Part shown: positions 6,213-33,051 of the stretch, piece by piece
How the letters are laid out: every line of letters begins with the position of its first letter
Numbering within the stretch: position 1 is the stretch's first letter
Origin: Bacteroidota bacterium
GTDB lineage: Bacteria > Bacteroidota > Ignavibacteria > Ignavibacteriales > Ignavibacteriaceae
Assembly: GCA_021824145.1 (NCBI GenBank)
Contig: JAKALM010000001.1
Span: 248,001-312,000 of the forward strand
DNA: 64,000 nucleotides
Direction of reading: 5' to 3'
Made by a program: the position numbers and the translations under genes
The notes under the pieces: model-generated
Databases searched by the model: none
What the model saw: the letters and a program-made list of their open reading frames with translations, nothing else
Told to the model about the DNA's origin: nothing

Positions 6213-7604
6213 ATGGAATATAGAGTTGAAACAGACAGCATGGGCGAAATTAAAGTCCCAACTGATAAATATTACGGAGCACAAACTGCCCGTTCATTAA
6301 TGAATTTTAAAATTGGCGGAGAAAGATTTCCAAGAGAAATAATTCGCGCTCTTGGGATTTTAAAAAAAGCAGCAGCACTTACAAATAAAGAACTTGGAAT
6401 CTTACCTGCAGATAAAGCAGATCTGATTGTAAAAGCTGCCGATGAAGTAATTGAAGGTAAACTTGATGGACACTTTCCACTCGTTGTTTGGCAAACAGGC
6501 AGCGGTACACAGACTAACATGAATGCAAATGAAGTTATTTCTAATCGTGCTATCGAGCTTTCGGGCGGACGAATGGGAAGCAAAAAACCAATTCATCCAA
6601 ATGATGATGTTAACAAAGCTCAATCCTCCAATGATACTTTTCCAACTGCAATGCACATTGCTGCCGTTGAAGAAATTCATCGCCGTTTGATTCCAATGGT
6701 AACTAAATTGAAAGAAGCATTTGCAGAAAAATCAAATGAGTTTAAAAGTATTATCAAAATTGGAAGAACACATTTGATGGATGCAACTCCACTAACACTT
6801 GGCCAAGAATTTTCTGGTTATGTTCAGCAATTGACAAACGGACTTGAAAGAATTAATTCATGCCTTCCGCATTTGTATGAATTAGCTTTAGGCGGAACAG
6901 CAGTTGGAACCGGATTAAACACTCATCCCGAATTTGCAGTAAAAGCAGCCGCAAAAATTTCTGAACTTACTGGAAAACCATTTGTTTCTGCAAGAAATAA
7001 ATTTGAAGCATTGGCTGCACACGATGCTTTAGTTGAAACGAGTGGAGTTTTAAAAACTTTAGCTGCTTCGTTAATGAAAATTGCCAATGATATTCGTTGG
7101 CTTGGTTCTGGGCCGCGCTCCGGCATAGGCGAATTACTTCTACCTGAAAATGAACCGGGAAGTTCAATTATGCCTGGAAAAGTTAATCCAACACAGTCAG
7201 AAGCAATGACGATGGTTTGTGCTCAGGTTTTTGGAAACGATACAACAGTTACAATTGCTGGTGCAAGCGGTAACTTTGAATTAAATGTTTTTAAACCGGT
7301 TATAATTTTTAATGTGCTGCAGTCAATAAAACTTTTAGCTGATGCTTGTGAAAGCTTTACAGATAATTGTGTTGTTGGAATTCAAGCAAACGAAATTAAT
7401 CTAAAGAAAAATCTTGAAAATTCTTTGATGCTTGTGACTGCTTTAAATCCACACATTGGTTATGATAATGCGGCAAAAGTTGCGAAGAAAGCACACAAAG
7501 AAAATAAAACCTTAAAGGAAGCAGCCATTGAATTGAATCTTCTAACAGCGGAAAAATTTGATGAAGTTGTCCGTCCCGAAAAAATGATTGGGCCGAAAGC
7601 TTAA
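6213..7604 (+). CDS. fumC: class II fumarate hydratase
   Basis: This TCA-cycle enzyme interconverts fumarate and L-malate as a cofactor-free tetramer. The 463-residue length is typical. The N-terminal [19 protein letters not shown] segment separates FumC from aspartase, which reads YGIHSLRA instead. The superfamily signature [11 protein letters not shown] is at residues 316-326, carrying the catalytic serine loop, and the [21 protein letters not shown] block is present. The start is the ATG eight bases after GGGAG; an 18-codon upstream extension was rejected. A second member of the superfamily, the aspartase, lies 11 kb away. Confidence 0.96.
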
Positions 7605-7609
7605 TATGC

Positions 7610-7638
7610 GTAGGACTCGCATCCAAAGCGAGTCTTAC
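7610..7638. repeat. REP-like hairpin after fumC
   Basis: An 11-bp inverted repeat with one G-U pair (GTAGGACTCGC / GCGAGTCTTAC) encloses the seven-base loop ATCCAAA. It is GC-rich against an AT-rich background and begins six bases after the fumC stop. No T-run follows, so a factor-independent terminator is less likely than a dispersed palindromic element or an RNA-stabilising hairpin. Only one copy is seen here. Confidence 0.55.
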
Positions 7639-7684
7639 TTATTCATTATGATCGACACTGAAACTTAAAAAATTAACAATAAAA

Positions 7685-7786
7685 ATGTTTGTAGAACCAG
7701 CCATATACCGTTGGTGCGCATGCGGACTTTCAATCACTCAACTATTTTGCGATGGAATCAAAAATCATATTGAGGGTAAATCTTGA
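7685..7786 (+). CDS. mini CDGSH-type iron-sulfur-like ORF, degenerate
   Basis: A 33-codon frame reads MFVEPAIYRWCACGL, then SITQLFCDG and IKNHIEGKS. It matches the layout of bacterial CDGSH proteins, whose 2Fe-2S cluster is held by C-x-C, a third Cys and a His in CDGSH. Three cysteines and CDG are kept, but SH is replaced by IKNH, moving the histidine by two residues, and the spacer normally found between the N-terminal M-x-x-P segment and the first Cys is missing. An in-frame stop lies 12 codons upstream. No ribosome-binding site is evident. It may be a decayed gene or a very small functional peptide. Its stop overlaps the TTG start of the next gene. Confidence 0.5.
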   Translation: MFVEPAIYRWCACGLSITQLFCDGIKNHIEGKS

Positions 7787-8460
7787 ATAATTGGAATGGA
7801 TTACTTTCGCTTTTCATTGCCTGTATAGAATTTATTCTAATAATAAACCTTCTTGTTTTTGCTGAAAAAAATAAAATCAATTTGCTTATAATTATTTTAG
7901 TTGCATTGTTGATGGGCTATCAGATTTTAGAGTTCTTAATGTGTACTCTGAATCTTAACTACTCTTACATGGTTTATTTTTCTATAGTTATTATTTCATT
8001 TCTTCCACCGCTCAATTTTTATTTCATATTTAAATATTTTGGAATTGATAAATCATATTTGAAGTTAATCTTTTTTCCTTCCATTGCTTTGGCAATCTAT
8101 TATTATTTTGTAATTAATAAATTTGCAGTAACAGCGTGCTCAGTTTTGTATGCATCGTATAACTATCCTTTGGGTTGGTTGTATGCAATATTTTATTATT
8201 TGCCGATACTTGTTGTTATAATTTTCCTTTTAATAATTAAAGACAAACAGAAAAATGATCAAGAAAAGAAAAAAGCTAATACATTATTAGGCGGTTTAAT
8301 TTTTATTTCACTTCCTGTTATTGCTGCATTTGTTTTGTCCATATTTCATAAATATCAACTGCTGGAAGTTATTGAAAGTGTAATGTGTAAATTTGCTTTT
8401 GTTTACGCAATATGTCTTTCATATTTTGCATTGATGAATAAGAGAATTTTAAATGAATGA
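7783..8460 (+). CDS. multi-pass membrane protein, about 7 TM (unknown)
   Basis: The 225-residue protein is almost entirely hydrophobic, with about seven membrane helices separated by short loops and one charged cytoplasmic-type loop (KDKQKNDQEKKK, near residue 160). The arrangement recalls the 7TM sensor modules placed before some histidine kinases, but no signalling domain follows. I take the TTG start because GAGGG lies six bases upstream and the TTG overlaps the stop of the preceding mini-ORF (TTGA), implying translational coupling. The end overlaps the next gene by eight bases. No function can be assigned. Confidence 0.7.
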   Translation: MNNWNGLLSLFIACIEFILIINLLVFAEKNKINLLIIILVALLMGYQILEFLMCTLNLNYSYMVYFSIVIISFLPPLNFYFIFKYFGIDKSYLKLIFFPSIALAIYYYFVINKFAVTACSVLYASYNYPLGWLYAIFYYLPILVVIIFLLIIKDKQKNDQEKKKANTLLGGLIFISLPVIAAFVLSIFHKYQLLEVIESVMCKFAFVYAICLSYFALMNKRILNE

Positions 8461-31634: not shown

Positions 31635-31663
31635 TTGACAAGTGAACATTCGTACACTATTTT
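31635..31663 (+). promoter_or_regulatory. lexA operon promoter
   Basis: A textbook housekeeping promoter: TTGACA (31635-31640), a 17-base spacer and TATTTT (31658-31663). Transcription should start near 31670, only about six bases before the lexA ATG, giving an almost leaderless mRNA. The spacer is filled by a LexA-like operator. Confidence 0.75.
31642..31657. promoter_or_regulatory. candidate LexA operator (SOS box)
   Basis: GTGAACATTCGTACAC is an imperfect palindrome of form GTGnAC-N4-GTnCAC, placed exactly between the -35 and -10 hexamers of the lexA promoter. Autoregulation by LexA is general, and the core resembles the GAAC-N4-GTTC type of SOS box, with one half-site changed. Binding here would block RNA polymerase. 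The assignment is by position and symmetry. Confidence 0.6.
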
Positions 31664-31675
31664 AGTAGTAAACAA

Positions 31676-32341
31676 ATGAGCACTATTATGAAAAATAAAT
31701 TAACTGATAGGCAGGAAGAAATATTAACCTTCATAAAACAATTTCGAGAAGAGAATGGTTATCCGCCAACTCTAAGAGAAATTGGAAAAAAATTTGGAAT
31801 CTCATCTACATTTGGAGTTAAGCGTCATCTTGATGCATTAGTAAAAAAAGGATATCTAAATATTGAAAGTAATGCTAGCAGAGGAATTTCTTTTCAGAAA
31901 GGTGTTGAAGAAATTCAAGATGAAAAATTTTTTAGAATTCAAGAAGACTATGGCTTTTATAAAATACCGGTTGTGGGCAGAGTTGCTGCTGGTATTCCGA
32001 TTTTAGCTGAAGAAAATATTGAAGGAAGTGTTGTTATCGATTCATCGTTTATGAAAAAATCGGAAGATTGCTTTGCGTTAAAAGTAAAAGGCGACAGTAT
32101 GATTAACGCTGGTATTTTTGAAAATGATTTAGTTATTATTTCTAATAAAAGAGAAATAGTAAACGGAGATATAGTTGTTGCGTTACTGGAAGATGAAGCA
32201 ACAGTAAAAACATATGAAATAAAAAATAAATCGATAAGATTATTGCCACAAAATAACAATTATCAGCCGATTGATATTAAAGATGTTGAAAATTTCAAAT
32301 TAATTGGAAAAGTCATCGGCATTGTAAGATGGTTAAATTAA
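31676..32341 (+). CDS. lexA: SOS repressor LexA
   Basis: LexA represses DNA-damage genes and is inactivated by RecA-stimulated self-cleavage. The 221-residue protein has the winged-helix N-domain (LTDRQEEILTFI; GYPPTLREIGKKFGISS) and the S24 peptidase C-domain. The cleavage site is Ala105-Gly106 in GRVAAGIPI, the nucleophile is Ser141 in KGDSMINAG, and the general base is Lys178; the Ser-Lys spacing of 37 equals that in E. coli LexA. The alternative ATG four codons in (MKNKLT) also fits family starts, and neither has a good ribosome-binding site. It heads a three-gene unit. Confidence 0.95.
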   Translation: MSTIMKNKLTDRQEEILTFIKQFREENGYPPTLREIGKKFGISSTFGVKRHLDALVKKGYLNIESNASRGISFQKGVEEIQDEKFFRIQEDYGFYKIPVVGRVAAGIPILAEENIEGSVVIDSSFMKKSEDCFALKVKGDSMINAGIFENDLVIISNKREIVNGDIVVALLEDEATVKTYEIKNKSIRLLPQNNNYQPIDIKDVENFKLIGKVIGIVRWLN

Positions 32342-32354
32342 TTATGGAGATTTT

Positions 32355-32603
32355 ATGAAAACTGAAATTTTTTCATCAGCAATATATAATAGAAATAAAA
32401 TAACATTTTTATATGGATTAAATAAAATAACTCTCGATCCTTATTTTATTTCGAAAGAAAAAGATGGACGAAAAGTTATTTATGGAAAACTGTTTAATTC
32501 AAGTGAGATAAGAAAATTTGAATATCAAAGAATATCAAATATTAAAGTTTTAAAAAATGTAAAATTTTCACCGATTATTCCAATATTAGCAAAAGCTGTA
32601 TAA
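32355..32603 (+). CDS. stand-alone WYL-like domain protein
   Basis: The 82-residue protein has the strand order and spacing of a WYL domain: AIYNRNKITFLYGL, then LDPYFISKEKDGRKVIYG, then SSEIRKFEYQRISNIKVL, where the last arginine-containing strand corresponds to the R-x-F-x-x-x-R-I element. WYL domains are SH3-like beta barrels that bind nucleic acid or nucleotide ligands and often sit in DNA-damage or defence regulators. Here no helix-turn-helix is attached. It starts 13 bases after lexA with TGGAG upstream, so it is under the LexA promoter. The family call is from pattern only. Confidence 0.6.
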   Translation: MKTEIFSSAIYNRNKITFLYGLNKITLDPYFISKEKDGRKVIYGKLFNSSEIRKFEYQRISNIKVLKNVKFSPIIPILAKAV

Positions 32604-32619
32604 AAATCTGGAGGTAAAA

Positions 32620-33051
32620 ATGTTAGAATTAATGAAACGCAGAACAATTGATTTATTAGTTGAACAATTTTGGAAACAAGGATATCTTACCCTTAGCAGA
32701 AAATATGGAACATATTTACCAGAACCAAATAAAGTCGGTGGTTTTGATGTTGATATTATCGGCAGACAAAAGAAAAATTATGCTATTGGAATTTCATTAA
32801 CATTAGAAGATCTGAATCAAAAAAATATTTTAGATAGATTAAATTTTTTAGCAACACGCCAAACAAAATTTACCAATAAGAGAGTTTTGTTATTTATCGG
32901 AATTGAAACTGAGAATTATAGTATAGCTAAATCTATTATTGAAAGATTAGAACCAGAAGCAATAAAAAACATTCGATTATTCCAAATAAAGGATAAACCT
33001 ATAATTTCTAATAGAAATTTGCAGAATAAAAATAATATGCTTTTTTCATAA
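32620..33051 (+). CDS. hypothetical protein with possible nuclease-like fold, lexA operon
   Basis: The 143-residue protein is preceded by a strong GGAGGT ribosome site and lies 16 bases after the WYL-like gene. The core reads helix, then GGFDVDIIGRQKKNYAIGISL, then helix and strands (RVLLFIGIE). That alpha-beta-beta order recalls PD-(D/E)xK nucleases, with Asp43/Asp45 as the first acid, but the usual E-x-K is G-I-S (57-59), so catalysis by that mechanism is doubtful. It may be a non-catalytic DNA-binding relative or an unrelated fold. No membrane segment is seen. Its role in the SOS context is unknown. Confidence 0.55.
   Translation: MLELMKRRTIDLLVEQFWKQGYLTLSRKYGTYLPEPNKVGGFDVDIIGRQKKNYAIGISLTLEDLNQKNILDRLNFLATRQTKFTNKRVLLFIGIETENYSIAKSIIERLEPEAIKNIRLFQIKDKPIISNRNLQNKNNMLFS

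Follow-up and report, generated by a model that had tools for sequence, protein, structure and literature searches.

A stand-alone WYL protein and a nuclease-like protein encoded with LexA in a predicted SOS operon of Ignavibacteriales

What do two small genes do that follow lexA in one apparent transcription unit? The question is raised by a 64,000-nucleotide stretch of a Bacteroidota genome (family Ignavibacteriaceae; assembly GCA_021824145.1, contig JAKALM010000001.1, positions 248,001–312,000; hereafter, the window), in which lexA, wyl and g3 lie on the plus strand (Table 1) separated by 13 and 16 bases, with a single promoter recognized by eye. A preliminary description of this DNA had proposed the same layout, and the coordinates of the open reading frames (ORFs) and the promoter read by eye agree with it. 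The conserved lexA-wyl-g3 arrangement suggests a component of the DNA-damage response that has yet to be described. Our preferred reading, to which we give a probability of roughly 0.45, is that wyl and g3 encode two basic proteins that act as effectors in an autoregulated SOS operon: repressed by LexA and induced by damage, they would bind nucleic acids as a pair, without catalysis.

Table 1 Positions in the window of the promoter, predicted operators and genes of the lexA-wyl-g3 operon
Feature	Position	Strand	Description	Family matches
lexA promoter	31635–31663	+	TTGACA (31635–31640), 17-base spacer, TATTTT (31658–31663), by eye	
Operator O1 (predicted)	31642–31657	+	GTGAACATTCGTACAC, inside promoter spacer (between -35 and -10)	
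Operator O2 (predicted)	31668–31683	+	GTAAACAAATGAGCAC, one mismatch, over lexA start codon, 26 bp from O1	
lexA (LexA1)	31676–32341	+	Canonical LexA, cleavage site A105-G106, Ser141/Lys178	TIGR00498, PF00717, PF01726
wyl	32355–32603	+	Stand-alone single-domain WYL (Sm-like barrel) protein, 82 residues, basic	
g3	32620–33051	+	143-residue protein, probable PD-(D/E)xK-like fold without catalytic Glu and Lys, basic	

Conservation and operators of the lexA operon

Among 164 genomes of the order Ignavibacteriales, wyl is present in 147, g3 in 142 and a LexA-type protein in 159, and the two small genes occur across all three sampled families of the order. To describe gene order, 90 loci were read, comprising 89 with wyl (58 other wyl-bearing genomes are not among them) and L120, which was picked since g3 stands alone there; L002 was left out. 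In every one of the 89 wyl loci, lexA is the next gene upstream on the same strand, and in 87 of them g3 is the next gene downstream (cut by the contig end in L062 and L108), so the small genes are conserved with lexA, as the preliminary description required of its proposal. The two wyl loci that lack g3 are L027, where the contig stops, and L079, where it continues. Two loci show overlaps of up to 101 bases between lexA and wyl, because the longest-ORF rule placed their starts upstream of the likely position.

The distribution of wyl follows that of the operon lexA. Seventeen genomes gave no wyl match; among them, just G029 has a lexA at the strength of the operon gene (E = 5e-60), at a contig edge, and the remaining ones have a weaker LexA-type match or none (counted by eye); because a strong lexA was found in only one of the 17, we conclude that wyl tracks the operon lexA. 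Four of these genomes are at least 99% complete (G144, G147, G156, and G157), and many others are incomplete assemblies. In a class-level search of 391 genomes, wyl matched 86, all within the order and none outside it, and in a phylum-level search g3 was found in 41 of 395 genomes, 39 of them within the order and two marginal (E = 0.007 and 0.009). Unlike the Ignavibacteriales operon, 19 lexA-type loci from 16 genomes of other orders of the class contained neither gene; these 16 come from a set of 26, the others having matches to the peptidase part only, or none (G260). Given this absence or marginal presence outside the order in our searches, the wyl-g3 pair looks like an invention of Ignavibacteriales. 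By eye, some lexA neighbors in those other orders resemble DinB, SRAP or DUF72 genes.

The product of lexA (221 residues) is matched by TIGR00498 at E = 5e-63 (212 bits; curated cut-off 111) and contains both the LexA DNA-binding domain and the S24 peptidase domain. Each of the 90 aligned LexA1 sequences retains the Ala-Gly cleavage site together with the Ser/Lys dyad. These features make the operon protein a canonical LexA, which is predicted to bind its own promoter and to be cleaved upon DNA damage.

The lexA promoter carries a conserved palindromic operator. A Gram-positive-like box, GAAC-N4-GTTC, was tried first and occurred at one mismatch or less in 23 of the 89 regions upstream of lexA, compared to 3.6 after shuffling. 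The pattern GTGNACNNNNGTNCAC is post hoc, because it was derived from these matches; a site within two mismatches of it was present in 89 of 89 regions, compared to about 2.5 per 89 after mononucleotide shuffling (all promoter shuffles were of single bases only). A pair of operators (GTGnnCn4GnnCAC) at 26 bp spacing, with no more than two mismatches in total, was found in 78 of the 89 promoters, whereas 30 rounds of the shuffled control gave no region below five mismatches. A single operator site with one mismatch carries no significance within the window. In all twelve best loci displayed, TATATT or TATTTT lies directly 3′ of O1. O2 overlies the start codon of lexA, so a transcript beginning a few bases past the -10 element would have next to no leader (31668–31690, by eye). 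A strong-looking ribosome-binding site, GGAGG, precedes g3 (32606–32622, by eye).

Exact GTGNNCN4GNNCAC sites occur at only three places in the genome of the window: at lexA, at the start of a DnaE2-like gene, and at one position taken as chance. A tighter pattern, GTGNNCATNNGNNCAC, was searched in 14 further genomes and had sites in 12. Over these 15 genomes, an exact operator precedes the DnaE2-like gene in eight (the genome of the window, G006, G018, G034, G060, G109, G140, and G161) and a Y-family polymerase gene in three (G017, G018, and G109), two of which share the site with DnaE2. Most other exact sites lie at lexA, and those at L139, L142, L151, L156, L157, and L161 are probably chance occurrences. 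G096 has exact sites of the tighter pattern nowhere but at lexA, where there are two. Conservation thus marks the operator as the predicted SOS box of LexA1, a reading we adopt because the operator also precedes translesion polymerase genes. Both the tandem operators at lexA and the same operator at polymerase genes favor the LexA control that had been suggested for the small genes, and the operator lets the SOS regulon of Ignavibacteriales be drawn.

Structural features of the wyl and g3 proteins

The alignments comprised 68 wyl and 75 g3 members, with near-identical sequences and L062, L108, L027, and L071 left out (L107 was also left out of alignment A1). The AlphaFold2 model of wyl has a mean predicted local distance difference test score (pLDDT) of 89, and its best Foldseek matches in the PDB are BrxR, PafBC, CapW and DriD (best E = 0.002, probability 1.00). 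In VIA, the model aligned with DriD bound to single-stranded DNA (ssDNA) at Z = 12.5 over 73 residues (root-mean-square deviation 1.4), and rows 1–14 of the ranking were all WYL regulators, followed by Hfq at 8.5. Sequence profiles gave fainter matches: Pfam WYL was matched by 32 of 68 members at E ≤1 (best 4e-4), with the window protein below the gathering score (13.3 vs 21.8 bits, E = 0.088); DUF5609 by seven members (best 0.0035); and the PADLOC WYL and AbiEii profiles at E = 5.5e-4 and 0.0029. One profile-profile comparison with helix-turn-helix (HTH)-WYL regulators of the same order gave E = 2e-5 and a probability of 78 (the regulator profile was built without L175, and L177 gave no ORF at its center). 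Taken together, the model assigns wyl a clear WYL (Sm-like) fold, as the preliminary description had supposed from the sequence. Its idea of a minimal WYL protein was also borne out: we found no HTH, three-helix bundle or WCX domain in wyl, and a single domain spans its 82 residues.

The family departs from typical WYL domains in that the W-Y-L triad is not kept, the corresponding positions being K40 (68/68), V41 (53/68), and I42 (41/68). The mean net charge is +7 over the 68 members. The C-terminal tail, F71-S-P-I-I-P (32565–32588, FSPIIPI), is well conserved (F71 and P73 in 67 of 68 members each) and has lower model confidence; it may be a docking segment for a partner.

The g3 model has a mean pLDDT of 88.6. 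Its top Foldseek match is NucS/EndoMS (2vld; E = 0.01, probability 0.99), with XisH, Hjc and Bax1 also found among unrelated rows, and in VIA the best match was SdaI (Z = 8.2), followed by NucS (7.6 over 103 residues) and many other nucleases. Judged by name or by known fold, many of the listed matches are PD-(D/E)xK nucleases. At the profile level, two Pfam nuclease families were reached, AHJR-like by five of 75 members (best 0.0074) and MTES_1575 by two (0.13); NCBIfam matches were to single members only, at E = 0.009 or worse, and PADLOC gave no match at E ≤1. In the catalytic motif D...ExK (columns assigned by eye), the Glu position holds Gly in 74 and Ala in one of the 75 members, and none of the 75 has Lys at the Lys position. 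Asp45 is kept (D in 73, E in two), as are Arg27 (75/75) and Asp11 (73 of 75), and conservation is among the highest in the loop R27-K-x-G-T-Y-L-P-x-P. The mean net charge of the 75 members is +8. The best reading of the model and the motif is a nuclease fold without catalysis, less firmly supported than the fold of wyl, so that the suggested degenerate PD-(D/E)xK-like protein stands with less force than the other proposals.

Searches of the PDB by sequence with the wyl and g3 profiles returned E-values above 1 throughout. No match to either protein was found in 50,697 phage records, and PHROG gave one match to wyl at E = 0.3 and none to g3. Based on the phage records and the PADLOC result for g3, a phage or defense origin of the pair was set aside.

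A predicted effector pair and its alternatives

Computation supports the operon, its operators, part of its regulon, the WYL fold, the loss of the catalytic motif, and the conservation of the gene order. Under the preferred reading, lexA, wyl and g3 would form one LexA-autoregulated SOS operon, repressed by LexA1 dimers on O1 and O2. RecA bound to ssDNA would stimulate self-cleavage of LexA1, and all three proteins would rise together. The wyl and g3 proteins would then act as effectors, probably as a joint complex that binds nucleic acids, without catalysis, where forks are damaged or stalled. There the complex could protect or mark a DNA structure and thereby tune repair and how long the RecA/LexA signal lasts. 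Damage induction, DNA binding, formation of a wyl-g3 complex and its site of action are what we infer here. In G096, wyl and g3 may be what LexA1 chiefly controls, because the operon promoter holds the only exact operators of the tighter pattern in that genome.

Several results weigh against this reading. The loci read are related, and agreement among them is not independent. G077 (L079) has lexA and wyl without g3, and G147 (L120:1992–2381) has kept g3 without a match to lexA1 or wyl, so the parts of the operon are not inseparable. The lone g3 of G147 precedes uppS and bamA, as g3 does in the window, and the region upstream of it contains no operator site closer than four mismatches; g3 may have a role of its own. 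The structural matches of g3 are weak (Foldseek E ≥0.01; VIA Z ≤8.2, in the tool's middling range), and unrelated Pfam families match members at strengths like that of AHJR-like (TP0453 at 0.001 and Pribosyltran at 0.0044, two members each). According to PMC11804915, ssDNA binding by PafB requires R211/R214 (changed together) and Y196. We mapped these residues from that source onto wyl via the HTH-WYL relatives, with no PafB sequence in the alignment. At the position of the PafB WYL Tyr, wyl has Val in 53 and Tyr in five of 68 members; the position of Arg211 is Glu56 (Glu or Asp in 61/68); and the counterpart of Arg214 is kept as Lys/Arg59 in 64/68, so that the PafB-like loop F-R-x-x-R reads F55-E56-x-x-R/K59. 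Because two of the three mapped residues have changed, ssDNA binding of the known type is not to be assumed for wyl. The idea that wyl senses ssDNA as known WYL domains do is accordingly lowered, and any binding may involve another surface.

The operator shared with the DnaE2-like and Y-family genes would also suit a wyl that is a mutasome subunit, i.e., a counterpart of YolD, UmuD′ or stand-alone ImuB-C whose SH3/Sm-like barrel attaches to the tail of a Y-family or DnaE2 polymerase induced in the SOS response, with g3 as a further accessory. A Y-family polymerase is present in 139 of the 164 genomes of the order, and the C-terminal half of DnaE2 was matched at E = 6e-188 or better in 97 (counted by eye). 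The occurrence of the pair does not follow these genes: G009 (100% complete) and G096 (99%) contain wyl and g3, have no Y-family match, and match the DnaE2 query just once, at DnaE1 level. Because these two genomes keep the pair without either match, we consider it independent of the polymerases. Five more nearly complete genomes with the pair (G052, G098, G116, G121, and G126) have no Y-family match, though a DnaE2-type match is present (partial in G098), and the four nearly complete genomes without wyl (G144, G147, G156, and G157) do have a Y-family polymerase. YolD (PF08863) is not among the 17 families matched by any of the 68 wyl members at E ≤1, from which filters drop most matches above 0.1. 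We regard a mutasome role as unlikely, and the genomes that bear the pair without Y-family and DnaE2-type matches lower it further as the sole role.

Equally improbable in our view is that wyl and g3 belong to the sensor as co-regulators, wyl binding LexA1 or the RecA filament to alter cleavage or operator binding and g3 serving as a DNA anchor. The invariable position of wyl next to lexA1, its closer tracking of lexA1 than of the polymerases, and the restriction of exact tighter-pattern sites to lexA in G096 speak for such a role, as does the control of the damage regulators PafBC and DriD by WYL domains (PMC11804915, PMC12340889). They are opposed by the g3 of G147, kept without lexA1 or an upstream operator, by the absence of an HTH or WCX part from wyl, and by LexA1 itself, which retains the residues needed to work alone. 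Division inhibitors neighbor lexA in several phyla, are a usual kind of small lexA-adjacent gene, and have proved to be core damage-response proteins. Background of this sort would favor wyl or g3 as an SOS cell-division inhibitor of the SulA or YneA type, which no tool result backs. Both proteins are basic, with a clear (wyl) or probable (g3) fold of nucleic-acid-binding type, and the Kyte-Doolittle average over 19 residues peaks at about 1 in either protein of the window, which by the usual rule is too low for a membrane helix, making inhibition of division very improbable. The least probable explanation is an active g3 nuclease with a rearranged catalytic center and wyl as its ssDNA sensor, forming an SOS-controlled repair or defense nuclease: the probable PD-(D/E)xK-like fold and the retention of Asp45, Arg27 and Asp11 would fit, but the Glu and Lys of the motif are missing from all 75 aligned members, neither protein has a match in the phage records, and g3 has none in PADLOC at E ≤1. 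We retain the effector pair as the preferred reading.

Comparison with known systems and further observations

Over almost its whole chain, wyl shares the Sm-like WYL fold of DriD, PafBC, BrxR and CapW, and it shares a DNA-damage setting with DriD and PafBC. It differs from the WYL regulators in the missing HTH, three-helix bundle and WCX parts, in the K-V-I triad, in the Glu at the Arg211 equivalent, and in its place within a lexA operon. More than 90% of WYL sequences fall in architectures with an HTH before the WYL domain, according to PMC6789036. Like YolD, which has been placed in a WYL-like superfamily, and stand-alone ImuB-C, wyl is small, separate and under LexA control; in contrast to them, it has no listed YolD match, is followed in the loci read by g3 and not by a polymerase, and persists in G009 and G096 without Y-family and DnaE2-type matches. 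The WYL domain of Pif1 helicase also lacks an HTH and is described as an accessory ssDNA-binding module (PMC9964779); it is fused to the helicase and has conserved arginines, whereas wyl is a separate protein.

The C-terminal domain of NucS/EndoMS is the best Foldseek match of g3, and NucS too pairs a barrel with such a domain (PMC8228993). Unlike NucS, g3 is a chain of its own from which the catalytic Glu and Lys are missing, and the VIA Z scores do not single NucS out; no NucS chain appeared among the 50 VIA rows listed for wyl, which excludes nothing. By analogy only, wyl-g3 might be viewed as a split NucS (barrel plus RecB-like domain). Autoregulated palindromic operators and polymerases in the regulon are features that the Ignavibacteriales operon has in common with lexA operons elsewhere and with the non-canonical LexA of Bacteroidetes.

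A lexA operon with stand-alone ImuB-C, WYL domains in damage responses, and an HTH-less WYL domain in Pif1 are already known. No description of a lexA-wyl-g3 operon was found in the open-licence literature on WYL domains, LexA/SOS and Ignavibacteria, and as far as could be seen, the grouping under LexA of a WYL protein and an inactivated nuclease-like protein is new. It is possible, at somewhat less than even odds, that the operon represents a new type of SOS component, a dedicated complex of two proteins, in which an inactivated nuclease and a stand-alone WYL barrel are made with LexA and act either on DNA that has been damaged or on the RecA/LexA switch. In several cases, genes that accompany lexA within a lineage have proved central to the damage response, among them mutasome subunits (PMC6511836), and here two families, unknown elsewhere within the reach of our searches, stay with lexA across three families of one order. 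PafBC and DriD use the fold found in wyl to sense DNA damage independently of LexA. If wyl and g3 act together, WYL and LexA damage responses would be joined in one operon, and a use would be found for a nuclease fold without catalysis.

The regulon search also showed variation in DnaE2 and LexA. In G001, G075, and G004, the DnaE2-type polymerase is split into two ORFs: the N-terminal half has 528–552 residues, with PHP and palm recognized by eye, and the C-terminal half has 552–556. In the genome of the window, G034, and G042, a C-terminal half of 560–580 residues has the operator at its start, with no N-terminal half in the stretch read. Domains of the C-terminal half are fingers, HhH and a weak OB match (positions of the half ORFs: L164:7451–9193 on the minus strand, genome of the window C26:69453–71192; L209:5118–6722 and 6724–8388; also L210 and L211). 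In G001 (L209:2036–8388), a second LexA paralogue heads a DUF72-like gene (by eye), a Y-family polymerase gene and the two DnaE2 halves. The 10.5 kb read around this paralogue contain no exact LexA1-type operator, and the cluster is possibly a second SOS circuit.
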